54,746 nt of DNA from Chimaeribacter arupi. Lineage in GTDB: Bacteria; Pseudomonadota; Gammaproteobacteria; Enterobacterales; Enterobacteriaceae. The translations under genes were made by a program, and so were the position numbers. Location: contig NZ_PJZI01000036.1 in the NCBI RefSeq assembly GCF_002858805.1, positions 1-54,746 on the forward strand, in the 5' to 3' direction. This document shows positions 5,252 through 19,350 of the stretch, piece after piece (position 1 is the first letter of the stretch; each line of letters begins with the position of its first letter). The notes under the pieces were generated by a model. It made no database searches. It saw only the letters and a list, made by a program, of their open reading frames with translations, and had not been told where the DNA came from.

Positions 5252-5674
5252 TTATGGCTCATCCTTAAACACCATCCCGGCATACGGCGACTGACGGCAG
5301 GCCGCCAGTCGTTGGGCCAGGCTGCCGACATGGATTTCCAGTTTATGACCATCGGGGTCGAGGAAATAAAAGGACTCCCCTTCACTGCGGTTTTCTTTCC
5401 AGATGACTACCCCGGCAGTGCGCAGACGTTCAGTGAAAGGCGTGAAATCCTGTTCCGCTATCGTAAACGCGTAGTGGGTATAATCGCTGTTTCCCGCAGC
5501 GACCGGACGGCGGGCCGCATCATAAGAGAGACACAACCATAACGGACCGCAACTCAGGTAAGCGCCGTTCTCCCAGTGCGCCTGAATCTCCAGGCCTAAC
5601 AGCCCGTGGTAAAAACGCATACTGGCAGCCAGATCTGAAACGGCCAGCGTAAGGTGGTTCAGCCCCTGAAGCAC
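5252..5674 (-). CDS. fosA: FosA fosfomycin-resistance glutathione transferase
   Basis: A 140-residue VOC-fold enzyme close to chromosomal FosA of Klebsiella and Serratia. It opens the fosfomycin epoxide with glutathione in a Mn2+/K+-dependent reaction in the cytosol. Metal ligands H7, H67 and E113 are present in their family contexts ([27 protein letters not shown]). The C-terminal [13 protein letters not shown] block is diagnostic of FosA rather than FosB or FosX. The gene overlaps the diguanylate cyclase upstream of it by 16 bases, so the two are probably translationally coupled. No mobile element flanks it, which fits an intrinsic rather than acquired gene. Confidence 0.93.
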
Positions 5675-7212
5675 GGTTCCTCCTCTGACGCCACCCCGGC
5701 ACCCATAATCCGGTTACGGCCGGCGCGTTTGGCCTGATAGAGCGCGGCATCGGCCGCCCGTTTCAGCTCATCGGCGCTGCCGCCGGGGTGGGCGGTGCTG
5801 ACGCCGCCGCTCAGGGTGACGATTTTTTCCGGCAACGGGCTGGCGCTGTGCGGCAGGGCCGCCCGGCGCAGGGCCGCCAGTGCGCGTTTCGCCACCTGTC
5901 TGGCTTCATCGGCGCCGGTGCCCGGCAGGATCAGCGCGAACTCTTCGCCGCCGTAGCGGGTTACCCGGTCGGCACCGCGGCGCGGCAGGTGGTCGAGGAT
6001 CTCCGCGACCTGCCTCAGGCATTCGTCACCGGCAACATGGCCAAAGGCATCGTTGTAGTTTTTGAAAAAGTCGATGTCCAGCATCACCAGCGACACCGGC
6101 AACCCGGACCCTTTCGCACGCAGCAGGCACTGCTCCAGATAAAAATCGAACTGGCGGCGGTTGCCGATGCCGGTCAGGCCGTCCACCAGCGCCAGATCCT
6201 GCAAGGTATGGTTGACCCGCGTCAGCTCGTCACGCACTTCCAGCAGCTCACGCTGTTTACGCAAGGTGGTGTTGAACTGCCTCAACCCCAGCAGGCCCAG
6301 CACGATCACCAGCAACAGCAGCAGGCCGTTCAGGATGATGATCACCGCATTATTGCTGAACCAGGTGCGCTGTAAGGCATTACGGTCATAACCGGCCACC
6401 GCCACCAGTGGGTAGCGCTCCAGCCGGGCATAGCCCGTCAGGCGCGTTACGCCGTCCACCCGGTTTTTCCAGGTGCGGGTGCCGGTGAGCGCACTTTTCA
6501 GCAGGCGGGTAAACAGCGGGCTGTGCGCCAGGCTGCGGTTAATCACGCTGTCCGGGAAGGGGCGCATATAAAGGATGGTGCCGTCAGCGTGCAGCAGCCC
6601 GAGCAGATCGTTCGGCCCCTGCTCATACCAGCCATAAAAGTGGCGGAAAAAATCGACCCTCACCGTGCCCAGCACCACGCCGCGGAACGCCCCCTGCGCA
6701 TCATTCAGACGCAGAGACACCGGGATGATCAGCTCCCCACTGGAGCGGCTGCGGATCACATGCCCGACGTGGATCAGCGCGTCGTTATGCTCACGGTGCC
6801 AGATAAAATATTCCCGGTCAGCATTATTGGCCCGCGGCGGCACGTGTTTCGCGGTCGTGGTGACCCAGCGCCCCTGCGCGTCATAGACGAACAGCCCATT
6901 CAGCTGCGGCAGTTTGCTCTTCTGCATGGCCAGCAGCCCGCCCGGCCCGGCAAAATGGGACGGCGCGGCAAACATCGCGTCTGCGTTGCGCGCCAGCTCC
7001 TCCAGGGTGAGTTCCACCTGTAAAAAGGTATCCTGCGCCTGCCGCGAGAGCGACAGCGACTGGTTTTTCGCGTCCTTCTCGGCATCCTGCACGGTGCCGT
7101 GCCAGGAGTGCCAGAGCGACCAGGTGCCGGTGAACAGCACCGCCGCGCTGATAATCATCAAACACGCGCGCATGATGCGTTCAGGGGACCGGTTACGGAA
7201 TAGGGCCAACAT
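5659..7212 (-). CDS. Membrane-anchored diguanylate cyclase (periplasmic Cache sensor plus GGDEF)
   Basis: A 517-residue protein making cyclic di-GMP from two GTP. One TM helix (about residues 14-35) and a second (about 288-312) bracket a periplasmic dCache-like sensor domain. A C-terminal GGDEF domain follows, with active-site GGEEF and an RGAD product-inhibition I-site (RxxD) exactly five residues before it. ATG at 7212 follows GGAGACA; the frame is open to 7275 but lacks a ribosome site there. It lies downstream of a chemoreceptor, separated by a strong terminator, and overlaps fosA. The effector sensed by the Cache domain is unknown. Confidence 0.9.
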
Positions 7213-7315
7213 TGTCTCCGGAAAGATAATTTGTGTTAAAGGAGGCGTATCCCCCAGCATAACGCGTTCCGGCAAAAACCGTTACGCAGGCATCACCGGC
7301 CCGGCGCACATGCAC

Positions 7316-7381: not shown

Positions 7382-9334
7382 TTACGCAGGCTGGGCCGAC
7401 AACCGGAACTGCTCTACTGTCTGGGCGAGCTGTTGCGCCTGCGCCTCCAGCGAGCTGGCTGCGGCAGACATCTCCTGCACCAGGGCGGCGTTTTGCTGGG
7501 TGGTGCCGTCCATCTCGTTGACCGCCAGCGTCACCTGGCTGATGCCCTTGGCCTGTTCGTCCGAGGCGGTGGCGATCTCGTTGATAATGCTCTGCATGGA
7601 CGTGACGGCCTGGGTCATCTCCTGCATGGTGTTGCCGGTATCGTGCACCAGTTGCACCCCGCTGCCGACGCGGCGGCCGGACTCTTCAATCAGCGCGGCG
7701 ATCTCGGTGGCGGCGGTGGCGCTGCGTTGCGCCAGGTTGCGTACTTCAGAGGCCACCACGGCGAAGCCGCGCCCCTGTTCACCGGCCCGTGCGGCCTCCA
7801 CCGCAGCGTTCAGCGCCAGGATATTGGTCTGGAACGCGATGCTGTTGATGATCGCCGTGATGTCGCCGATTTTCCGGGCGCTGTCATCAATCTGCGTCAT
7901 CGTCTCCACCACCTGGTTCACCAGCAGCTCGCCGCGCCCGGCGATGCGGGTGGCGTTCTCCGTCAATACCGTGGCCTGGTGCGTGTTCGCGGCGTTATGT
8001 TTCACGGTGGCAGTGATCTGCTCCATGCTGGCGGCGGTCTCCTCCAGCGCGGCGGCCTGCTGTTCCGTGCGGGAGGCGAGATCCAGGTTGCCGCCGGCAA
8101 TCTCGCCTGCGCCCTGGCGCACCGAGTCGCTGGCCTCTTTCAGCTGGCCGACAATACCGCGCAACTGCGCCTGCATGGTGTGCAGGGCAAAAAACAGGCT
8201 GCTGCGGTCACCGGCACTGACCGGGATGGCGTTATCCAGCTTGCCTTCCGCAACCGCCAGCGCAATGGTGGCAGCCTGCAACGGCTCGCCGCCGATCGGC
8301 CGCAGCACTTTGCGGCTGAAAATTACCCCAAGCAGCGCGCTCACCAGCAGGATGCTCACCACCATCAGGATCACGGCATTGGTTAACTGCCGGTTGGCGG
8401 CCGCCATCACCTGGCTGACCGGCACCACCACGCCGAGGTACCACGGCTGGTCGCTGTTGCCGATGGTGACCGGTTGCCAGGTCACCATCACCTCTTCGTC
8501 CAGCCGCGCGTCATGTTGTTGCACGATGTCCGCGGTGAAGTTATCGGCCCGGCCGGGCCAGACTTTACCCGCTAACGTTTTATCCGGGTGGGAGACCACT
8601 TTGCCGCCATGCGAAAGCAGCATGGCGTAGCCGCTGCCTTCCCAGGGTTTTATCTGATCGACTTTTTTCTGCAACGACGCCAGCGAGATGTCGGAGGCGA
8701 CCACCGCCCAGAGTTTGCCGTCACTGACGATCGGCGACGAAACGGAAGTCAGCAGCGTCGGCACACCGTTATAGGCGTAGGTGTAGGGTTCGGTGAGGGT
8801 ATCTTTGCGGCTCTTTTGCGGCACCAGATAGTAGTCGCCCTGGCCGGGCGTGGCATAGGAGAGCAGCGGGTGCATCGCGTACTGGCCCGCCTGGTTTTTG
8901 TCGACAAACCAGGCGTAGCGGCCGTTCGGTGCCTGGCCGGGCAGGGCGGCGAACTCGGCGTCGCGCCCGTCGAAGGCATCCTGTTCGAAAATCACGGACA
9001 TCGACAGGTAATCAGGGTTATCCCGCAGGGCGTATTCCGTCAGCTTATCGGCGGCGGCGCGCTCTTTTATCCCGGCGGCGGGCAGGGCGATCAGGCTCTG
9101 GCCCAGGTTGTGCGCCACATCCCTGGCATAGCTCAGCTCCTGCTGGATTTGCAGGGCGCTGGACTGGGCGATCTGTTGCAGGTACTGCCCGGCCAGCAAT
9201 TTTTGCTCGCGGCCTGACTGCCAGCTCAGCACACCAATGGTGACCACAAACCCAAGGGTGATGGTTAACGCGCCCGTGAGCAGCATCTGTGTGCGGGTAC
9301 TCATGGGGTGTTTCTGTCGTACTTTTCCGGCCAT
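7382..9334 (-). CDS. Methyl-accepting chemotaxis protein with dCache ligand domain
   Basis: A 650-residue transducer: TM1 (about residues 18-38), a long periplasmic dCache_1 region (about 40-315), TM2 (about 322-345), a HAMP segment, and a cytoplasmic signalling domain. The conserved hairpin tip is intact ([23 protein letters not shown] followed by [18 protein letters not shown]). Glutamine/glutamate-rich methylation helices ([19 protein letters not shown]) are present. The C-terminus ends in SAQPA with no NWETF-type pentapeptide, so CheR/CheB tethering is not expected. ATG at 9334 has GGGAG seven bases upstream. A sigma-28-like promoter lies about 70-90 bases upstream, tying it to the flagellar regulon. 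The ligand is unknown. Confidence 0.93.
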
Positions 9335-9518: not shown

Positions 9519-10916
9519 TCAGGCTTTGCTCGCCCGGCCGCTGGGCACCCGCACATCATGGCGGCTGTGGAACAGCGGGTAGGCGATGCTGGTCACCACC
9601 AGGCTGATAATCCAGGAGATATCCACCCCTGGGATCAGGTTGGCATAGGGGCCGGTGAAAAAGGCGTTCTCCACAAACGGCACCTGCACCACAATCCCAC
9701 CGAAATAGACCAGCAAGGCGCGGGTGTTGACCCGCCCGTAACGCCCGCCGTCCGCGCTGAAAATCGAGGGGATGTCATAGCGCTGTTTATTGATCAGGTA
9801 GAAATCGATCAGGTTAATCACGCTCCACGGGATAAGCACGGCGATCAACGCCAGGATCAGGTTCAGGAAAAAGGTGACGAAGTGGGCGGAAGCCGCCAGG
9901 GCCGTCAGCACCGAGCCTGCCAGCACCAGCGTGGAGAACAGCACCCGGACACGCGCATCCGGCGTCCAGTGCGGGCGGAACGTCTGGACGGCGGTAATCA
10001 GCGAGAGCACCGCGCCATACAGGTTCATGGAGTTATGGCAGATGATGTTGACCAAAAACAGCCCCATCAGCACCGGCCCGAGCCAGCCGGTCGCCTGCCG
10101 GACGGAGGCCATTGCATCGCTGCCGGGCACCAGGTTAACCGCCACCAGCCCGAACACAAACGCCAGGATAGTGCCGCAGCACGCCCCCAGATAGGTGCAG
10201 AGGAACGGCCGCGCAATGCCGGCGCTGGCCGGCAGGTAGCGTGAATAGTCAGAGGTGTAGGGCGAAAAGCTGATTTGCCACACCGCGCCGATGCAGAAGG
10301 TGGCAAACCAGCCGCCGGGGGTGACGCTGCCGCGCTGCCAGAAATCGGCCGGCAGCGGCTGGGTCAGCATCAGCAAAAGCCCGCCCAGCAGCGCCGCGCC
10401 CATCACCCAGGCACCTACCTTGTTGATATGGTGGATAAAGTGGTACCCCACCACGCCAATCAGCGTCGCGACCACTGCCCCGGTGAGCGTGGCGGCCGGG
10501 AGCGGCAACGCCGGGATGACATTGTTAATCACCCGCCCGGACAGGGAAATATTGGAGATAAAGAAGCCGAGGTAAATCACGGTGGCGAAGATAATCACCA
10601 GCAGCGAACCGTAACGGCCGAACTGCGCCCGGCTCTGTACCATTTGCGGAATGCCCACCTGCGGCCCCTGTGCCGACGTCAGGGCCAGGAAAATCCCGCC
10701 GAACAGGTGCCCGGCGATAATCGCCGTCAGCGCCGAGGCAATACTGAGGTGGAACGTCTGGCTGGCCATCGCCCCGGTGACCACCGCCAGCGGTGCAATG
10801 TTGGTGCAGAACCAGAGCGTAAAGAGGCTGCGTGAGCGGCCGTGGCGCTCTGACGCCGGGACGTAATCAACAGACTTGTTTTCAATTAACCGTTTCTGGT
10901 CTGGCTGGGCACTCAT
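9519..10916 (-). CDS. NCS1-family nucleobase/hydantoin permease
   Basis: A 465-residue, about 12-TM inner-membrane symporter of the nucleobase:cation symporter-1 family (CodB/purine-cytosine permease branch). Recognisable blocks are the N-terminal LFTLWFCTNIAPLAVVTG, the GxxxG-rich TM2-3 region and FSPYTSDYSRYLP, the NCS1 SDYSRY-type signature. Family substrates are cytosine, purines, allantoin, hydantoins, uracil and thiamine-type heterocycles. It is the last gene of the minus-strand catabolic cluster, 193 bases after the aldehyde dehydrogenase. It probably imports the cluster's substrate, most likely a nitrogen heterocycle; the identity cannot be read from sequence. Confidence 0.88.
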   Translation of the reverse strand: MSAQPDQKRLIENKSVDYVPASERHGRSRSLFTLWFCTNIAPLAVVTGAMASQTFHLSIASALTAIIAGHLFGGIFLALTSAQGPQVGIPQMVQSRAQFGRYGSLLVIIFATVIYLGFFISNISLSGRVINNVIPALPLPAATLTGAVVATLIGVVGYHFIHHINKVGAWVMGAALLGGLLLMLTQPLPADFWQRGSVTPGGWFATFCIGAVWQISFSPYTSDYSRYLPASAGIARPFLCTYLGACCGTILAFVFGLVAVNLVPGSDAMASVRQATGWLGPVLMGLFLVNIICHNSMNLYGAVLSLITAVQTFRPHWTPDARVRVLFSTLVLAGSVLTALAASAHFVTFFLNLILALIAVLIPWSVINLIDFYLINKQRYDIPSIFSADGGRYGRVNTRALLVYFGGIVVQVPFVENAFFTGPYANLIPGVDISWIISLVVTSIAYPLFHSRHDVRVPSGRASKA

Positions 10917-11109
10917 TCTAACCTCCGGGAAATCAGGATTTCAGCGTGTAAACAGCGGGTGTAAGGCGGTATTCCCTGAAAAAAGCCCACAGCCATCCTG
11001 ACAACCGGCGAGGGTTGCCTTAACAGGTGATGACGTCAGAAACAGGCTGGCGGTGTCGTCCTGAAACGCATAACGCGGGCGGCGGGGGCGCGCCGCCCTG
11101 CGCACTGGG

Positions 11110-12576
11110 TCAGCGCATCACAAACGGGTCATCTATCGGCGCATCACTGGTGCGTAACCAGACGGTTTTGGTGGTGGTGTACTCCAGCGCCGCGTCCATG
11201 CCGCCTTCACGGCCAAAGCCCGATTTGCCGTAGCCGCCAAAGGGGGCCAGCGGGGAGACCGCCCGGTAGGTGTTGAGCCACACCACGCCGGTGCGCAGCC
11301 GGCGCGTCACGCGGTGGGCGCGGGTCAGGTTCTGGGTAAACACCCCGGCCGCCAGCCCATACCCGGTGTCATTCGCCAGGCGCACCGCTTCGGCCTCATC
11401 ACGGAAGGTCAGCACCGAGAGTACCGGGCCGAACAGTTCCTCCGTCACGCACACGGCCTGCGGCTGGGCCGAGCAGTCGAGGATGGTTGGCGGGTAGTAA
11501 TAACCGGGGCGATCCAGGTCGTAATGGCCGGTGACCAGCCGCGCGCCCTGTTCCAGTGACTGCGTGACCCGCTGGTGGATGCGCGTTTTTTGCTGGGGGG
11601 TGCAGAGCGGGCCGAACTGGGTCTCCGGCTGCTGCGGGCAGCCAATCACAATGTTGCGCACCTTCTGCGTCAGCGCCTCGAGAAACGCGTCTTTGATGCT
11701 TTCTGCCACCAGCAGCCGGGAGCCGGCCACGCAGCTCTGGCCCGAGGCGGAGAAGATCGCCGCGACCTGCGCATTGGCGGCGCTCTCCAGGTCAGCATCC
11801 TCAAACACGATAAACGGTGATTTGCCGCCCAGCTCCAGCGAGGTGCGCGCCAGGTTTTCCGCACTGTTGCGGATGATGCTTTTTGCCGTTTCCGGGCCGC
11901 CGGTAAAGGCGATGTGGTCCACCAGCGGGTGGGTGGTCAGCACCGTGCCGCACGTCGCGGCGAAGCCGGTAATGATGTTACAGACGCCGGGCGGGAACCC
12001 GGCTTCGTCGATCAGGCGCGCAAACGCCAGCAGCGGGGCCGGGGCGGTTTCCGCGGCCTTGACCACCAGCGTGCAGCCGGCGGCGATCGCCGGGCCGATT
12101 TTCACGGCCGATAAAAACAGCTGGCTGTTCCAGGGGATGATCGCCGCGACCACGCCCACGGGTTCACGCGTGACCCAGGTTTCCATGTCCGGTTTGTCGA
12201 TGCTGAGGGTGCGCCCCTCCATCTTGTCCGCCAGCCCGGCGTAATAGCGGTAATACTCCGCGACATACGCCACCTGGGCGCGGGTTTCCCGGATGATTTT
12301 GCCGGTGTCGAGCGTCTCCAGCCGCGCCAGTTCCCCGGCGTTCTGCTCCAGCAGATCCGCCAGCCGCAGCAGCAATTTGCCGCGCGCACCGGCGGTGAGG
12401 CCGCGCCAGCGTTCGTCATGGAAAGCGCGGTGCGCGGCGGCCACCGCCCGGTTGACGTCCTCTGCCTGCGCTTCGGCAATCTCCGCCCAGGGCTGCTCCG
12501 TGGCCGGGTTCAGCGAGGTGAAACAGGCGCTGCCCGCCTCAAAGCGGCCGTCGATATAGAGTTTGAACGATTCCAT
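11110..12576 (-). CDS. NAD(P)-dependent aldehyde dehydrogenase of the catabolic operon
   Basis: A 488-residue ALDH-superfamily enzyme of normal length. The nucleotide-binding IIPWNSQL block, Lys in LVVKAAETAP, general-base Glu in LELGGKSPF and catalytic Cys in SGQSCVAGSR are all present. It resembles the betaine-aldehyde/gamma-aminobutyraldehyde/semialdehyde branch. It starts nine bases after the monooxygenase stop in the same operon. A role oxidising a semialdehyde released after ring cleavage is consistent with context but inferred. Confidence 0.9.
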   Translation of the reverse strand: MESFKLYIDGRFEAGSACFTSLNPATEQPWAEIAEAQAEDVNRAVAAAHRAFHDERWRGLTAGARGKLLLRLADLLEQNAGELARLETLDTGKIIRETRAQVAYVAEYYRYYAGLADKMEGRTLSIDKPDMETWVTREPVGVVAAIIPWNSQLFLSAVKIGPAIAAGCTLVVKAAETAPAPLLAFARLIDEAGFPPGVCNIITGFAATCGTVLTTHPLVDHIAFTGGPETAKSIIRNSAENLARTSLELGGKSPFIVFEDADLESAANAQVAAIFSASGQSCVAGSRLLVAESIKDAFLEALTQKVRNIVIGCPQQPETQFGPLCTPQQKTRIHQRVTQSLEQGARLVTGHYDLDRPGYYYPPTILDCSAQPQAVCVTEELFGPVLSVLTFRDEAEAVRLANDTGYGLAAGVFTQNLTRAHRVTRRLRTGVVWLNTYRAVSPLAPFGGYGKSGFGREGGMDAALEYTTTKTVWLRTSDAPIDDPFVMR

Positions 12577-12585
12577 CAGGGTTCC

Positions 12586-13623
12586 TCAGTGAAATTCGGG
12601 CAGCACGCCGTGAATAAAACGCTCCAGTGACGCTTTTTTGCGGGCAAACGGCATCCCGCTGTCGATCCACAACGCGAACTCGTCATAGCCCAGCGCCTCA
12701 TAATGTTTCAGGCGGGCGATCAGGTCATTGGCGGTGCCGATGGCGAGGTTGGTGCGCATGGCCTCGGCGGAGTAGTAACGGTTGGCCGCAATCTCCTCGT
12801 CGGTCAGCGGCTGGATCAGCCCCTGCGTGACCGGGCGCTCATTCTTGAACCAGGCACCGAAATAGTTGTAGAAGCGGTTAAATTCGGTGGCGGCCTGCTG
12901 CGCGTCGGCCTCATCCTCCGCCACATAGCCATGTTGCAGCAGCATGATTTTCAGCGGGGCAGGCGGTGGGAATGCCCGGCAGGCCTCTTTGAAGCAGGTC
13001 ACCAGCCGGACAATCTCCTCCTCGCCCTGATGCAGCGGCGTCACCTGTACGTTGCAGTTATTTTTCACGGCAAACTCATGGCTGTTCGGGTCACGCGCTG
13101 CCACCCAGATCGGCGGTGCGGCGTCTTTGGCCGGTTGCGGCGCGGACGTGGTCGACGGGAATGACCAGAACTCCCCCTGGTGGGCGTAATCGCCCTGCCA
13201 CAGCTTCTGCACCGCCGGGATCAGCTCACGCATCCGCTGGCCCGCCTCCCAGGCCGTCAGCCCCGGCATCAGGCGTTCATATTCGAAGCTGTACGCACCG
13301 CGTGCGATGCCCAGCTCCAGCCGCCCGCCGGTGATAAGGTCAGTCATCGCCGCTTCCCCGGCCAGCCGGATCGGGTGGTTGAAGGGGGCGACCACGGTGC
13401 CGGTGCCCAGGCGAACCCGGGATGTCCGGTGGGCGATGTCCACCAGGTTGATAAACGGGTTGGGGGCGATGGTGAAATTCATGCCGTGGTGCTCACCCGT
13501 CCAGATAGCGTGCATACCGCCGCGATCCGCGATTTCACACAGCGTCATCATCTCGTTGTAGAGCGTTTCCTGCGGCTCATCGGGGGAAATTCTTTCCATA
13601 TGAACGAATAAAGAGAGTTTCAT
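12586..13623 (-). CDS. Luciferase-like (LLM) flavin-dependent monooxygenase
   Basis: A 345-residue bacterial-luciferase-family oxygenase. It begins MKLSLFVHMERIS and contains the LLM TIM-barrel landmarks: AIWTGEHHG, FINLVDIAHRTSRVRLGTGTVV, FNHPIRLAGEAAMTD, GGRLELGIARG and PIWVAARDPNS. The class uses reduced FMN from a separate reductase to oxygenate substrates, including amide and heterocycle cleavage in the RutA-like logic. It is not close to RutA in sequence. The adjacent flavin reductase gene (19-base gap) supplies the partner. ATG at 13623 was chosen over the upstream extension, which overlaps the reductase and lacks motif similarity. Confidence 0.9.
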   Translation of the reverse strand: MKLSLFVHMERISPDEPQETLYNEMMTLCEIADRGGMHAIWTGEHHGMNFTIAPNPFINLVDIAHRTSRVRLGTGTVVAPFNHPIRLAGEAAMTDLITGGRLELGIARGAYSFEYERLMPGLTAWEAGQRMRELIPAVQKLWQGDYAHQGEFWSFPSTTSAPQPAKDAAPPIWVAARDPNSHEFAVKNNCNVQVTPLHQGEEEIVRLVTCFKEACRAFPPPAPLKIMLLQHGYVAEDEADAQQAATEFNRFYNYFGAWFKNERPVTQGLIQPLTDEEIAANRYYSAEAMRTNLAIGTANDLIARLKHYEALGYDEFALWIDSGMPFARKKASLERFIHGVLPEFH

Positions 13624-13642
13624 GGTTGCGTCCTCACGGCGT

Positions 13643-14572
13643 TCAGCCGGCGAAATGTTTAAGGCTGCCGCGTTGTTCATCGCCGTAATAGATGGCGTAA
13701 TTACCCACCGCATGTTCCCTGACAAAACGGTTCATCAGCGATTTCAGGGCGGAGTCGGCAATCGGCAAACCGGCCAGATTGCTCAGGGGATACCACTCGG
13801 CCTGGTGCAGCGGCGGCTGTGCCTCTGCGGCATCGGTCGGCAGGGCGCACAGGAACACGATGTGCTGGCGGTTTTTGGGGCGCTCGTCGTAAATCGAATA
13901 GACAAAGCCGGGGCTGGCGTTCAGAGACAGATCGCGGGTCAGTGCGGCCAGGGTGTCACTGACGCCCTGGCCGCCGACGGTGCGGGCGGGCAGGGCGTAG
14001 CCGCCATCCTGCTGTCTGACCATCACCGCCCGGCCGTTGGATTCAATCAGCGCGCTGACCACCACTTCCGGGTTGGTGATCAGGGATTCGGCATTATGGA
14101 ACGGGGTGAAATAGGCACCGCGGTAGTAACCCAGCCCGGCGGTGCCGCTGGAGCCGAACGCCCCGACTTCCCCGATCAAAATGGCGTGGTCACCGGCATC
14201 CACCACCTGATGCAGGCGGCAGTCAAACCAGGCGGAGCTGCCGTCAATCAGCGGCGCACCGGAGGCAGCCGGGTGCCAGTCGATCAGCGCGAAGCGATCC
14301 TCAATTTTCTGCGCAAAAATGTTTGAGGTCTCTTTCTGCTGCTCGGCGAGCACATTGATGGCGAAGTGGCCGCAGCCGGTAAACTGGGCAAAATTGGCCG
14401 AACGCTTGTCAATGCTGACCAGCAGCAACGGCGGCTCCAGCGACACCGAGGAGAAGGAATTGGCGGTAAAGCCAAGCGGTTGGCCGTGATCACCCGTGGT
14501 GGTCACGACGGTGACGCCGGTCATAAAAGCGCCGAAAGCGTCACGTAATTGTCTGCGTTTATCTGCGTCCAT
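13643..14572 (-). CDS. Flavin reductase fused to a degenerate Nudix-like domain
   Basis: A 309-residue two-domain protein. Residues 1-165 form a RutF/HpaC-type FMN reductase (FMTGVTVVTTTGDHGQPLGFT, ANSFSSVSLEPPLLLVSID, HFAINVLAEQQ), which should feed reduced flavin to the neighbouring monooxygenase. Residues about 170-309 look like a Nudix fold: an initial strand VSALIESNGRAVMVRQ, then YALPARTVGG, and a late EWYPLSNL. The Nudix box itself is lost (TRDLSLNAS where REL-EE-G is expected), so this half is probably a sensor or structural domain. ATG at 14572 has GAAGGAG six bases upstream, inside the end of the hydrolase gene (14-base overlap). Confidence 0.85.
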   Translation of the reverse strand: MDADKRRQLRDAFGAFMTGVTVVTTTGDHGQPLGFTANSFSSVSLEPPLLLVSIDKRSANFAQFTGCGHFAINVLAEQQKETSNIFAQKIEDRFALIDWHPAASGAPLIDGSSAWFDCRLHQVVDAGDHAILIGEVGAFGSSGTAGLGYYRGAYFTPFHNAESLITNPEVVVSALIESNGRAVMVRQQDGGYALPARTVGGQGVSDTLAALTRDLSLNASPGFVYSIYDERPKNRQHIVFLCALPTDAAEAQPPLHQAEWYPLSNLAGLPIADSALKSLMNRFVREHAVGNYAIYYGDEQRGSLKHFAG

Positions 14573-15404
14573 CTGTCACTCCTTCTCGTGTGGTCTGCCG
14601 GGCAACCGGTGCAGGGGCAGGGCGGAGAAACGCCAGAAGTTCCGCGTTGACCCGCTCTGCGTCTGTCAGGGTGACCATGTGCCGGGCGTTTTCAATAATC
14701 ACCGCCTGCCCGTGGGGGGCGGCCTGGGCCATCTGCCGGGCCATTGCCGGGCTGGAGTTGGCATCCTGTTCGCCGGTCAGCACCAGTACCGGGCACTGGA
14801 TCGCCTGCCAGCGGTCGGCGTAGAGCTGGTCGCCCCCGGCAAACGCCTGATAGGCGCAGGCGTAGCCTTGCCGGTCAACCCGGTGCAGCCAGTCGCCCAC
14901 CTGGCGGCGCAGTGGCTGTTCGCCGGGCGCGTCACTGAACCAGCGCGCCAGCGGCGAGTCGATCTCTCCCTGCCCGGCGGCGAGTTCAGCGGCGCGCTGC
15001 ACGACGGCGGCGCGGGCCGCGTCACTGCGGCGGAACACCCCGCTCATCACTACCGCGTGGCTCACCAGCGCCGGGCAGTCGATCGCCAGCCCGGCAGTGA
15101 TCAGCGCGCCCATCGAGTGACCCGCCACGGCAAAACGCGCCTCCGGCTGGGTACGCAGGAACGCGGCCAGCCACGCGACGTACTCGTTCAGGGCGGCGGG
15201 GTGGCGGAAGCCCTCGCTTTCACCGTGCCCCGGCATGTCCACCGCCAGCACCCGGAAGTGGCGGCTCAGCGCCGCCATCTGCGGATACCAGGATTCCGCG
15301 TTCATCCCGACCCCGTGGATCAGCACCAGCGGCGCGCCCTGGCCCGCTTCCAGATAGCTGACCCGGAGGTTTATCTCAGACAGCTGCTGGGTTTTTCGGA
15401 TCAT
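14559..15404 (-). CDS. Alpha/beta hydrolase of the catabolic operon
   Basis: A 281-residue alpha/beta-hydrolase. It has the oxyanion-hole HGVGMN, nucleophile elbow GHSMGA (Ser about residue 96), acid-bearing LVLTGEQDANSS and catalytic His in ENARHMVTL. It is in the size range of RutD and carbon-carbon or ester hydrolases. The gene overlaps the upstream AA_synth gene by 29 bases and the downstream reductase by 14 bases, so the three are tightly coupled. In RutD-like pathways such an enzyme handles a carbamate or enamine product after ring opening. That role here is an analogy only. Confidence 0.88.
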   Translation of the reverse strand: MIRKTQQLSEINLRVSYLEAGQGAPLVLIHGVGMNAESWYPQMAALSRHFRVLAVDMPGHGESEGFRHPAALNEYVAWLAAFLRTQPEARFAVAGHSMGALITAGLAIDCPALVSHAVVMSGVFRRSDAARAAVVQRAAELAAGQGEIDSPLARWFSDAPGEQPLRRQVGDWLHRVDRQGYACAYQAFAGGDQLYADRWQAIQCPVLVLTGEQDANSSPAMARQMAQAAPHGQAVIIENARHMVTLTDAERVNAELLAFLRPAPAPVARQTTREGVTDGRR

Positions 15405-15978
15405 GGCCTAACTCTTTCAGGTCAAGGTAACGGTTGCCGATACGGTGGTGTGGCCTGCCGCCCAGCGCAGCGCCCAACGCAATGACGATTTCGTCACTGA
15501 AAGGGGCATCATTGATGTTGAACTGGAACGTCAGGTAGTGTTCGCGGCTGCCCTCGTCGTTTTTGCCCATCATCGGGATCAGGATCGGGGAGTTGGCCGG
15601 GCCGCGGGTGTTGTTGAACGCCAGGTAACTTTTCCCCTCGACTGCCGAGCGGTAATGGTTGCCGAAGTGCAGGGTGTGGATAAGCGCGGAGGCGTGTTCC
15701 AGTTCGCCGTCCAGCCCCACCACGGCACTTTTGCCGAACGCCTGAACCTGCTCGCCCGACCCGGCCTCTTTGATGATCAACGCCGTCAGCAGCTCGCCAA
15801 GCACCGGGGCCATCTCGCGGATTTTTGGCGCCAGATCTTCAACGAAGCCTTGCCCGGCCCACGGGTTTTTCACCACGGCTGCGGCCGCGATCATTACCAG
15901 CGGCTGGCCGGCTGCCTTGCCGCCGTCGGAATAGATCGTCTCAGTGGAAACCAGTGTCTTACGGATATCCGGATGCAT
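15376..15978 (-). CDS. AA_synth (DUF1185) family protein, first gene of the catabolic operon
   Basis: A 200-residue protein matching the family labelled 'amino acid synthesis' (PF06684, formerly DUF1185), whose biochemical role is not established. Typical blocks seen are KTLVSTETIYSDGG near the N-terminus, VVKNPWAGQ, IKEAGSGEQVQAFGKSAVVG, GKSYLAFNNTRGPAN and GALGGRPHHRIGNRY. It has no signal peptide or TM helix. It is the promoter-proximal gene of the operon, overlapping the hydrolase by 29 bases. An enzymatic role on the substrate or first product is likely from position alone. Confidence 0.85.
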   Translation of the reverse strand: MHPDIRKTLVSTETIYSDGGKAAGQPLVMIAAAAVVKNPWAGQGFVEDLAPKIREMAPVLGELLTALIIKEAGSGEQVQAFGKSAVVGLDGELEHASALIHTLHFGNHYRSAVEGKSYLAFNNTRGPANSPILIPMMGKNDEGSREHYLTFQFNINDAPFSDEIVIALGAALGGRPHHRIGNRYLDLKELGHDPKNPAAV

Positions 15979-16527
15979 GGAACAACCTCCAAAAGTAAAT
16001 GAAATGTTAACTCTCTGTGGCGTGAGACGAGGTATAGCACCGGGTTTCGTTGTATGTCAAAAGTTGGTATACCATCATACGGAATACTTAAAATTTTCTG
16101 AAAAGGGCGGCGTCTACAGCTGGCAAACCCCGGCAGCAGGCGGGTTTAACCCGCCAACGCTGTTTCAGAAATACCGGTTTACCGGGCTGACGGGTGCAGG
16201 AGGGGAAAGGTGAAAAAATAGGCAGAGTGTAAAATAATTGTCGATATTTATCAGATGTATATCTTACATGGCCGGGCTGGCTGGGTGGTGATAATTTGCG
16301 CATTCCGGCGAAATAACAGATTTGTGAACTGGCGCGGATTTCCGGCAGTTTCCCGTCAGGTGCCGGTAAAGACGCCATGCAGTTAATCGGATGGCATATG
16401 GCATACCAGGATTGCCAAAGCAGGCGAAACAGTGCTAATAGTTAACCGGCAGGCGGTCAGGACGAGGCGGACGCCCGCCCTTATTGTTACGCATACGTTA
16501 AAAATTCCGCTCATCAAAGAGAAGCCC
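15979..16527. promoter_or_regulatory. Control region between the catabolic operon and its GntR regulator
   Basis: About 550 bases with no credible gene between divergent units. A perfect palindrome TGGTATACCA lies at 16065-16074, on the operon side. A one-mismatch copy, TGGCATACCA, lies at 16399-16408, on the regulator side. VanR/FadR-type (FCD) GntR proteins bind short palindromes of this kind with a TAnnTA-like core, so these are good operator candidates. The stretch from 16210 to 16260 is AT-rich and could hold a promoter. Confidence 0.55.
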
Positions 16528-17205
16528 ATGCTGCCAAACCATTCATTAAAAATAGAGAATACCCCGCAAACCCTGCGTGAACTGGCGCTGACCAAAGTGC
16601 GCCAGGCGATTATCGCCGGGTATTTTGAAGCGGGTGACCGGCTGGTGGAGCGGACACTCAGTGAAGAGCTGGGCGTCAGCCGCAGCGTGGTGCGGGAGGT
16701 GATCCGCTACCTGGAAGCCGAAGGGCTGATTGAGAACCTGCCGAAAAAGGGGCCGATAGTGGCGGTGCTGACCTGGCAGGTGGCGGAGCAGATTTACGCC
16801 ATCCGGATGCTGTTGGAGCAGGAGGCGGCGCACGACTGCGCCCGGCTGGCGCAACCGCATGACAAACAGGTGCTGCACCAGAAACTGATGCAGATCGCCG
16901 AGGCCTCCAACGAGCATGATGACATCCGGCGGGTTGAGGCCTCCCAGGCGTTTTACGAAACCATTTTCCAGGTTGCCAACCACACCATCGCCTGGGAAAT
17001 TGTGCAGCGGCTTAACAGCCGCATCAGCCGCCTGCGCGCCCTGACGCTGAAAAGCCATGAGCGCCGTGTCGCGGGCTTTGAGCGCATGTCACGCATCTAT
17101 GATGCGATTGATAAAAATGACGCCGATCTGGCGCGCAACGAGGTGCTGGCCCACCTCACGGAAGCCGCTGAACTGGCGAAACGCATTTTAACTGAGCAGG
17201 AGTAA
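16528..17205 (+). CDS. GntR-family regulator (FCD subfamily)
   Basis: A 225-residue GntR/FadR-type regulator. The N-terminal winged HTH spans about residues 10-75 (VRQAIIAGYFEAGDRLVERTL, then LGVSRSVVREVIRYLEAEGL). The all-helical FCD effector domain spans about 85-215, with His/Asp residues suited to a bound metal. ATG at 16528 was chosen: the extension to 16432 crosses the putative operator region and matches nothing. It is divergent from the monooxygenase operon and five bases upstream of the DUF1330 gene. It is probably the local repressor, with an acidic pathway intermediate as the effector. Confidence 0.88.
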   Translation: MLPNHSLKIENTPQTLRELALTKVRQAIIAGYFEAGDRLVERTLSEELGVSRSVVREVIRYLEAEGLIENLPKKGPIVAVLTWQVAEQIYAIRMLLEQEAAHDCARLAQPHDKQVLHQKLMQIAEASNEHDDIRRVEASQAFYETIFQVANHTIAWEIVQRLNSRISRLRALTLKSHERRVAGFERMSRIYDAIDKNDADLARNEVLAHLTEAAELAKRILTEQE

Positions 17206-17209
17206 CCCG

Positions 17210-17494
17210 ATGCCCGCCTACTGGATTGCCCATGTCACTGTTCATGATCCCGCACAGTATCAGCACTATATGGCGCTGGCCCCCGACGCATTCCGCCAGT
17301 TTAACGCCCGCTTCCTGGCGCGGGGCGGCCAGGCTGAAACGCTGGAAGGGGCAGCCTTCATCAAACATGTGGTGATTGAATTTGACGATTACCCCACGGC
17401 GCTGGCCTGTTACCACTCAGAGGCGTACCAGCAGGCACGGGCCAGGCGCGCCGGCGTCGCTGACGCGATGATCACCATTGTGGATGGCCTCTGA
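17210..17494 (+). CDS. DUF1330 family protein
   Basis: A 94-residue dimeric alpha/beta-barrel-type protein of DUF1330. It has the family's opening AYWIAHVTVHDPAQYQHYM, the GGQAETLEG core and the FDDYPTALACYHSEAYQQARARR motif. The reaction is unknown; relatives are often found in catabolic clusters. CAGGAG sits just before its ATG, four bases after the GntR stop, so it is co-transcribed with the regulator. Context suggests a small accessory enzyme or chaperone of the same pathway. Confidence 0.85.
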   Translation: MPAYWIAHVTVHDPAQYQHYMALAPDAFRQFNARFLARGGQAETLEGAAFIKHVVIEFDDYPTALACYHSEAYQQARARRAGVADAMITIVDGL

Positions 17495-18330: not shown

Positions 18331-19350
18331 TCAGTGCTGGTTTTCGGGCGTCACCAGCCGAAAGTCAACATTGCCGGTGACATAGGTGTCCGGGGCGTCA
18401 CCGGTTTCCAGGTAACGCAACAGGATATCCGTCGCCAGTTGGGCATGTTGGCGCGCATTCTGGTCAATGGTCAGCGTTAATACGTCCTGCGCCAGCAGCG
18501 TGCGGGTCAGGCTATACAGCTCATGGGTGATGTAGAGGCAGTGGCCCGCCAGCCGGTGCCGCACCAGCGCCCGGCTGACCTCGGTGTTGCCCATCCCGGT
18601 GTTATACAGCCCGACCACGTTATCCGCCCCGGCCAGATGGCGCTCCAGCAGGTCGCTGATGATCGCCCGCTCATCCTGCCCAGCCAGTGCCTCGCGCAGG
18701 TGCAGGTGCGGGAAGCGCTGCTGCATCACCTGGCGGAACCCCTCAATGCGCTGCCGGTGCGCCCGGTAATCCCTCCGCCCGCTGACCATGATCACTTCCC
18801 CCGGCGTCGCCAGCATTTTCCCCATCATCAGCCCCGCCGTGCGCCCGGCCTGAAGCTGGTTGATGCCGACATGGCAGAGCCGCGGCGCGTCCGGCAAGTC
18901 GGTGACCAGGGTGATCACCGGCACGCCGCGCGCCCGGCAGTGCGCCAGCGCCTCATGGATCGCCGGGTCATCGTGCGCGAACACCATGATGCCGTCACGG
19001 GTGCGGCTGCACGCCTCAAGGTGGCGCGCCAGCGTCTCCGGCTGGGATTCGGGGATAAAGGTGCGGTGCAACGTCAGGCGGCGGTAGCCCAGCCGGTCGG
19101 CGATGTGGCTGAAGTCCGCCGCCAGTTGACGGAAGAAGAAAGAGCCGTTGGCGCTGAGAATCACCTCAATCTGCCACGGGTGGTTATAGGCCTCCGGCAA
19201 TACCCGTTTCAGCCCGCTTTCGCGCGCTGCCTGCAACACCTTTCTGGCCGTTGCCGGTGAAACGCCGCCCCGTTCATTGAGCACCCGGTCAACAGTGGCG
19301 ACGCCGACATCCGCCATTTTGGCGAGCATCTCAAGGGTAAGCTTTTTCAT
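18331..19350 (-). CDS. LacI-family transcriptional regulator
   Basis: A 339-residue LacI/GalR-type regulator. The N-terminal HTH reads LTLEMLAKMADVGVATVDRVLNERG with a VSPATARKVLQAA hinge helix, and a periplasmic-binding-protein-like effector domain fills the rest (about 62-339). The RVLNERGGVSPAT form belongs to the branch regulating sugar, polyol or sugar-acid catabolism. It follows a Gfo/Idh/MocA oxidoreductase on the same strand, with a terminator hairpin between them whose T run ends about nine bases before its ATG region. It likely controls that oxidoreductase and perhaps the sugar-acid dehydrogenase operon at 20967-24819. Confidence 0.9.
   Translation of the reverse strand: MKKLTLEMLAKMADVGVATVDRVLNERGGVSPATARKVLQAARESGLKRVLPEAYNHPWQIEVILSANGSFFFRQLAADFSHIADRLGYRRLTLHRTFIPESQPETLARHLEACSRTRDGIMVFAHDDPAIHEALAHCRARGVPVITLVTDLPDAPRLCHVGINQLQAGRTAGLMMGKMLATPGEVIMVSGRRDYRAHRQRIEGFRQVMQQRFPHLHLREALAGQDERAIISDLLERHLAGADNVVGLYNTGMGNTEVSRALVRHRLAGHCLYITHELYSLTRTLLAQDVLTLTIDQNARQHAQLATDILLRYLETGDAPDTYVTGNVDFRLVTPENQH

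Follow-up and report, generated by a model that had tools for sequence, protein, structure and literature searches.

Trigonelline (N-methylnicotinate) is a common plant compound, and the tgn pathway for its degradation was reportedly worked out in Acinetobacter baylyi by Perchat et al. in 2018 in PNAS. Another described route, the Rut pathway for uracil, joins a flavin reductase and a luciferase-like monooxygenase (LLM) to an alpha/beta hydrolase and a transporter, and leads to a semialdehyde product. Here, we describe an eight-gene locus at positions 9519 to 17494 of a 54,746-nucleotide stretch of Chimaeribacter arupi DNA (NZ_PJZI01000036.1), called the window; it forms contig C52 in a genome of 4.88 Mb. 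Judged from sequence comparison, the operon in this locus is very likely a trigonelline catabolic cluster, tgnFDABC with an NCS1 permease, probably plasmid-borne and under divergent GntR/FCD control.

An earlier, sequence-only reading of this DNA had proposed eight reading frames here, and all were recovered at the same places, on the same strands and in the same families. The locus is laid out as follows, with identities referring to the A. baylyi type strain DSM 14961 (locus L070, obtained from a scan of named genomes):

9519-10916 (-): NCS1 permease, probable trigonelline importer, the substrate being suggested by position; PF02133, 2.4e-40; 61% to the A. baylyi permease at the matching place
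11110-12576 (-): aldehyde dehydrogenase, TgnC orthologue; Aldedh; 69% to the A. baylyi TgnC-position gene; counterpart named tgnC in Acinetobacter sp. PK01
12586-13623 (-): LLM-class flavin monooxygenase, TgnB orthologue; Bac_luciferase; 68%; placed by tree; syntenic PK01 gene named tgnB
13643-14572 (-): flavin reductase, TgnA orthologue; Flavin_Reduct; 49%; syntenic PK01 gene named tgnA
14559-15404 (-): alpha/beta hydrolase, TgnD orthologue; Abhydrolase; 48%; GHSMG stretch common to both in the alignment
15376-15978 (-): AA_synth (PF06684) protein, TgnF orthologue; family match; 74%
16065-16074 (unstranded): TGGTATACCA palindrome before the AA_synth gene, predicted operator of the GntR/FCD protein; position conserved
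16399-16408 (unstranded): one-mismatch copy of TGGTATACCA before the regulator gene, weak when taken alone, with at least two such matches in 14 of 100 window shuffles
16528-17205 (+): GntR/FCD regulator (TgnR-like), divergent from the operon; GntR and FCD domains; 56% to the A. baylyi counterpart
17210-17494 (+): DUF1330 gene; PF07045, 5.7e-33; 60% to the A. baylyi gene at the matching place

The order and orientation of these eight genes are as in the A. baylyi type strain. The record of Acinetobacter sp. PK01 (L061) annotates tgnA, tgnB and tgnC of trigonelline degradation in a cluster that runs DUF1330, GntR (divergent), AA_synth, alpha/beta hydrolase, tgnA, tgnB, tgnC, cytosine permease, a hypothetical gene, succinate-semialdehyde dehydrogenase and a carboxymuconolactone-decarboxylase-type gene; its first eight genes are the eight of the window, arranged alike. 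Each expected enzyme thus has its counterpart: a TgnB-type oxygenase (68% to PK01 as well), a syntenic TgnA-type reductase adjoining tgnB, a TgnC dehydrogenase, TgnF and the hydrolase, whose gene name we presume to be tgnD. The sequence-only reading had called the pathway uncharacterised, a description overturned by the PK01 annotation, the A. baylyi identities and synteny, and the monooxygenase tree, all of which make the genes orthologues of the trigonelline (tgn) genes. Its view of the chemistry, in which a two-component flavin monooxygenase opens an N-heterocycle, is borne out by the same orthology. That this is a new occurrence of a known pathway, and not a new pathway, is well supported.

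The operon is compact. On re-reading of the frames, the overlaps described earlier proved exact, at 29 bases between the AA_synth and hydrolase genes (15376-15404) and 14 bases between the hydrolase and flavin reductase genes (14559-14572). The monooxygenase gene, with its start taken from a near-identical C. arupi record, follows the reductase gene by 19 bases and precedes the dehydrogenase gene by 9; the permease gene lies 193 bases beyond the latter. The regulator start at 16528 is also that used in the C. arupi record. In a neighbourhood comparison, all four partner enzymes were found on the same strand within 4 kb in 74 of 80 monooxygenase-anchored loci, an arrangement beyond chance. These 80 named loci are the best 80 of at least 575 confirmed monooxygenase matches and hence close kin, and ten of them have less than 6 kb of flank on one side. 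Within 10 kb they carry GntR (74), DUF1330 (67), NCS1 (38), an ATP-binding cassette (ABC) substrate-binding protein (29) or a TgnE-like gene (40). The full core of four partner enzymes was also present in 14 of 25 additional loci reaching further out.

Monooxygenase relatives and alternative substrates

The loci yielded 114 monooxygenase rows, two of which were dropped (extraction gave 3 and 7 residues), and the remaining 112 were used for a tree rooted at its midpoint. The window and the C. arupi record group with four other Enterobacterales rows (100/99), and these six fall within a 99-row clade (100/100) that holds A. baylyi, PK01 and the Sinorhizobium meliloti pSymA sequence. Identity to the window LLM goes down to about 61% within this clade. 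Rows outside it lie at 56-58% (L056, L057 and a single copy from each of L095 and L096), 43-51% (L036, L037, L044, L058, L059 and L060) or 36-42% (L038, L039 and L040). The Caballeronia loci L095 and L096 contain paired clusters: one is of trigonelline type (LLM 70-71%), and the other, which is more distant (LLM 56-57%), may serve another pyridinium compound. The six loci at 43-51% have rearranged clusters or lone genes, with NCS1 nearby in four (L036, L037, L059 and L060), and could possibly represent a sister pathway with a different substrate.

Several observations weigh against trigonelline as the substrate. The Enterobacterales branch of six rows is separate from the two reference-bearing branches, with the branching order unresolved, and a shifted substrate in it is therefore possible; function in the window organism and throughout this branch is read from sequence. 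TgnA and TgnD are just 48-49% identical to their A. baylyi counterparts, and the cluster (first 22 kb of the window) has no tgnE-like gene. A genome search for the methylamine-related SoxD family gave no match, and the same search was positive on the PK01 plasmid. Methylamine assimilation as in PK01, where sarcosine-oxidase-like genes stand beside tgn, was rejected on this search for SoxD. The growth data on S. meliloti in PMC4207669 speak for trigonelline, on which the wild type grows and a derivative without pSymA does not, but within limits. The loss puts the trait on pSymA and names no genes, so it does not tie the trait to the tgn-type cluster specifically; moreover, the cluster was read in the record of strain ABS7, and the phenotype belongs to the strain of those data.

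Of the alternatives, the one that fares best keeps the chemistry and changes the substrate, so that enzymes of the Enterobacterales branch would attack a similar pyridine or pyridinium compound, such as homarine, N-methylpyridinium or nicotinate. The position of the window branch beside, and not inside, the reference-holding branches speaks for it, as do the farther homologues (LLM 43-58%), two of which, in L095 and L096, occur next to a tgn-type cluster; these homologues suggest that substrates have diverged in the wider family. However, the palindrome is retained, and so is the whole Acinetobacter set of eight genes, permease, regulator and DUF1330 among them. The window LLM has 66-68% identity to the three references, whereas for the next clades (L056, L057, L095, L096) the figure is 56-58%. 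For homarine, the discussion in PMC8269262 includes a steric argument that TgnAB are unlikely to act on it. We regard a related pyridine as an improbable substrate. The narrow form of the sequence-only reading, in which a Rut-like operon would handle a nucleobase-type ring (pyrimidine, hydantoin, lactam or another) entering through NCS1, is more improbable again: the parts are broadly alike (LLM, a flavin reductase with 103 bits to RutF, a hydrolase with 66.9 bits to RutD), but these scores are far under the curated cut-offs of 254.75 and 238.5, and the orthologues are tgn genes, on which grounds a Rut-type pyrimidine pathway was rejected. That reading had itself stressed a Rut-like logic built from different parts, which agrees with what we find, and no RutA, RutB or RutC model came up for the nine proteins scanned among the 25 best models of each.

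Proposed trigonelline pathway and the role of TgnF

Orthology and synteny with the tgn genes are observed, and every reaction that follows is carried over from the A. baylyi pathway. The NCS1 permease would import trigonelline. An importing role had been assigned to it before, and this is plausible; the ring, left unassigned in that reading, is by the position of the gene probably trigonelline. TgnA would give reduced flavin to TgnB, which would open the pyridinium ring with O2; the passages on these enzymes in PMC8269262 describe TgnA and TgnB as opening the trigonelline ring, and the same paper has Ruegeria pomeroyi growing better on trigonelline than on homarine. TgnC would oxidise the aldehyde/hydroxybutyrolactone product of ring cleavage, a substrate taken from the name in the PK01 record. 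The chemistry after the TgnC step is general background: TgnD would hydrolyse N-methylformamido-methylene succinate to succinate semialdehyde, methylamine, formate and CO2, and a succinate-semialdehyde dehydrogenase, presumably encoded elsewhere, would form succinate. TgnF would assist by some mechanism, and the GntR/FCD regulator would bind TGGTATACCA in the divergent promoter region.

The clustered aldehyde dehydrogenase had been proposed as the final semialdehyde oxidiser. It is 69% identical to the A. baylyi TgnC-position gene and 34% to the TgnE-position gene, and it was discarded as the terminal dehydrogenase; as a TgnC orthologue, it should act on the ring-cleavage product and not on the final semialdehyde. 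A whole-genome search with PK01 TgnE at E 1e-100 returned only two matches. Contig C47 carries both, one with 53% identity over residues 6-480 and the other with 54% over residues 28-339 (of 482), and these homologues are the best candidates for the final succinate-semialdehyde dehydrogenase.

In its account of these proteins, PMC7913881 makes TgnF homologous to the BCM-like (DUF1185) protein HcdD, of the AA_synth family, and states that TgnF stimulates TgnE in A. baylyi ADP1 and that all attempts to see a stimulating effect of HcdD itself failed. The proposal made in an AA_synth structure paper, a role in amino-acid metabolism (PMC2954203), is of no help for TgnF. Flanks are complete to 10 kb in 60 named loci; every one of these 60 has an AA_synth gene (tgnF), whereas 31 have a TgnE-like gene in that range, and the remaining 29 contained no second match of the TgnC query that could conceal one. 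Because TgnE was not found within 10 kb in these 29, a clustered TgnE is not a strict requirement of tgn clusters, and it is possible that TgnE lies farther away in such genomes.

Owing to this difference in occurrence, and to the overlap of tgnF with tgnD in a window cluster that has no tgnE, we tentatively suggest, although we think it doubtful, that TgnF could serve the core reactions; it might, for instance, act much as RutC does in the Rut pathway and hydrolyse or isomerise an unstable enamine/imine or carbamate that TgnD leaves behind. An AlphaFold model of the AA_synth protein, made with 35 aligned sequences, had a mean predicted local distance difference test score (pLDDT) of 91.7. Foldseek with this model returned two solved family members (3byq and 2qtp; three chains) and nothing else at E <0.001. 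A catalytic TgnF is held as conjecture because the best 50 of 608 Foldseek rows contained no RidA/RutC-like match. The question raised is whether the AA_synth protein may serve an earlier step than TgnE, the enzyme it reportedly stimulates.

A conserved palindrome before tgnF

When the divergent region of the window was aligned with those of four relatives, an invariant block was seen around TGGTATACCA. The 300 bases before the AA_synth gene were then compared in 78 loci (77 named loci and the window; one more locus had too little upstream sequence). A perfect TGGTATACCA precedes tgnF in 63 of the 78. In the other 15, a one-mismatch form lies no more than 200 bases from the start, at a distance of 41-61 bases in 13 loci and of 136 and 139 bases in the last two. 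Many of these loci are close kin, so the 63 perfect palindromes are not independent. The palindrome is common to Enterobacterales, Acinetobacter, Burkholderiaceae and Rhodobacterales loci. Such a palindrome fits the operators of FadR-type GntR proteins, and TGGTATACCA is, on this comparison, the probable operator of the GntR/FCD protein.

Outside the upstream region, the same loci have nine TGGTATACCA sites in 1.56 Mb. Five of the nine are in Acinetobacter loci (L068, L069, L070, L071 and L088), roughly 7.85-7.89 kb downstream from where tgnF starts; in L070 this second perfect site stands some 100 bases ahead of the TgnE-position gene, suggesting that the same regulator also controls tgnE there. 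The other four belong to other genera and are found 1.4-5.2 kb upstream of tgnF. In the whole genome of the window organism there are three perfect sites, the same count as for a reversed-pattern control, so the evidence for an operator is the conserved place and not genome-wide rarity. The two other genomic sites, on contigs C46 and C83, stand amid frames that look by eye like LacI, LysR and transporter genes and were taken as chance. A limited text search of the literature did not find the ten letters of TGGTATACCA, which does not show the site to be unpublished. The palindrome offers a testable operator for the regulator of this pathway.

Genomic setting and comparison with known systems

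The window monooxygenase is 99.7% identical to that of a gene on plasmid p251 of C. arupi DSM 115072, where the neighbouring genes, chemoreceptor and GGDEF genes included, match those of the window; for this reason, the window contig is probably plasmid-borne as well. Among four genomes searched in the genus, the monooxygenase was present in the organism itself and one other (82%), and the best matches in the other two were about 30% identical. At E 1e-60 or better, and counting the organism's own genome, 4 of 394 genomes in the order and 23 of 398 in the phylum have a match, and blastn of the gene against 5,426 Escherichia coli genomes found none. A tblastn search of plasmid records (E 1e-30 or better) gave 357 with a monooxygenase match, 255 of them from Rhizobium/Sinorhizobium and others from Leisingera, Acinetobacter etc. 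The results in PMC2656620 have trigonelline never used by a panel of Klebsiella pneumoniae strains, and those in PMC4179279 give no use by Siccibacter and Franconibacter; the trait is patchily distributed. Matches of 81.2% identity and equal score are present in plasmids of Pantoea sp. PSNIH1 and Pantoea eucrina and in CP060162, labelled Acinetobacter venetianus, which points to either a recent transfer or a mislabelled record.

With this locus, the Chimaeribacter/Pantoea group gains an example of a known plant-alkaloid pathway. In the records of C. arupi and Pantoea the genes sit on a large plasmid and bear only labels such as 'LLM class flavin-dependent oxidoreductase' or 'amino acid synthesis family protein'. 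A chemoreceptor gene (methyl-accepting chemotaxis protein, dCache_1; 7382-9334, -) lies 184 bases downstream of the permease gene on the same strand, adjoined by a GGDEF diguanylate cyclase gene with a dCache_1-like sensor domain (5659-7275, -). The chemoreceptor was rejected as a member of the system, a full-length homologue being present only in the C. arupi record among the compared loci (flanks up to about 10 kb); the compared flanks of the nearest relatives (L041, L042, L043 and L065) contained none. Partial matches were seen in two Caballeronia loci (residues 308-645 and 312-645) and in one other case at 27% over residues 128-644. Table footnotes in PMC10104139 record no trigonelline binding for several amine-sensing dCache domains. 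The chemoreceptor may sense trigonelline, an idea that nothing in our analysis supports. A LacI-type gene (18331-19350) was among the nine frames scanned for families and was not counted in the system.

Set against the known systems, the window shares with Rut the logic of a reductase and LLM, a hydrolase, a semialdehyde and a transporter, and differs from it in orthology, its proteins scoring below the RutD and RutF models. The pSymA cluster of S. meliloti ABS7 (L063), which is bordered by nod/noe genes and, at its opposite end, by a nif gene, has the five enzyme genes in the order of the window; downstream it differs, carrying an ABC transporter and a gene of the NIPSNAP family, with no NCS1 or DUF1330 match in the compared stretch, and its LLM is 66% identical. 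The A. baylyi tgn cluster differs from the first 22 kb of the window in its downstream porin-like gene, tgnE and carboxymuconolactone-decarboxylase-type gene, and is alike in eight genes of shared order and orientation at 48-74% identity, with the one-mismatch form of TGGTATACCA before tgnF in the type strain.

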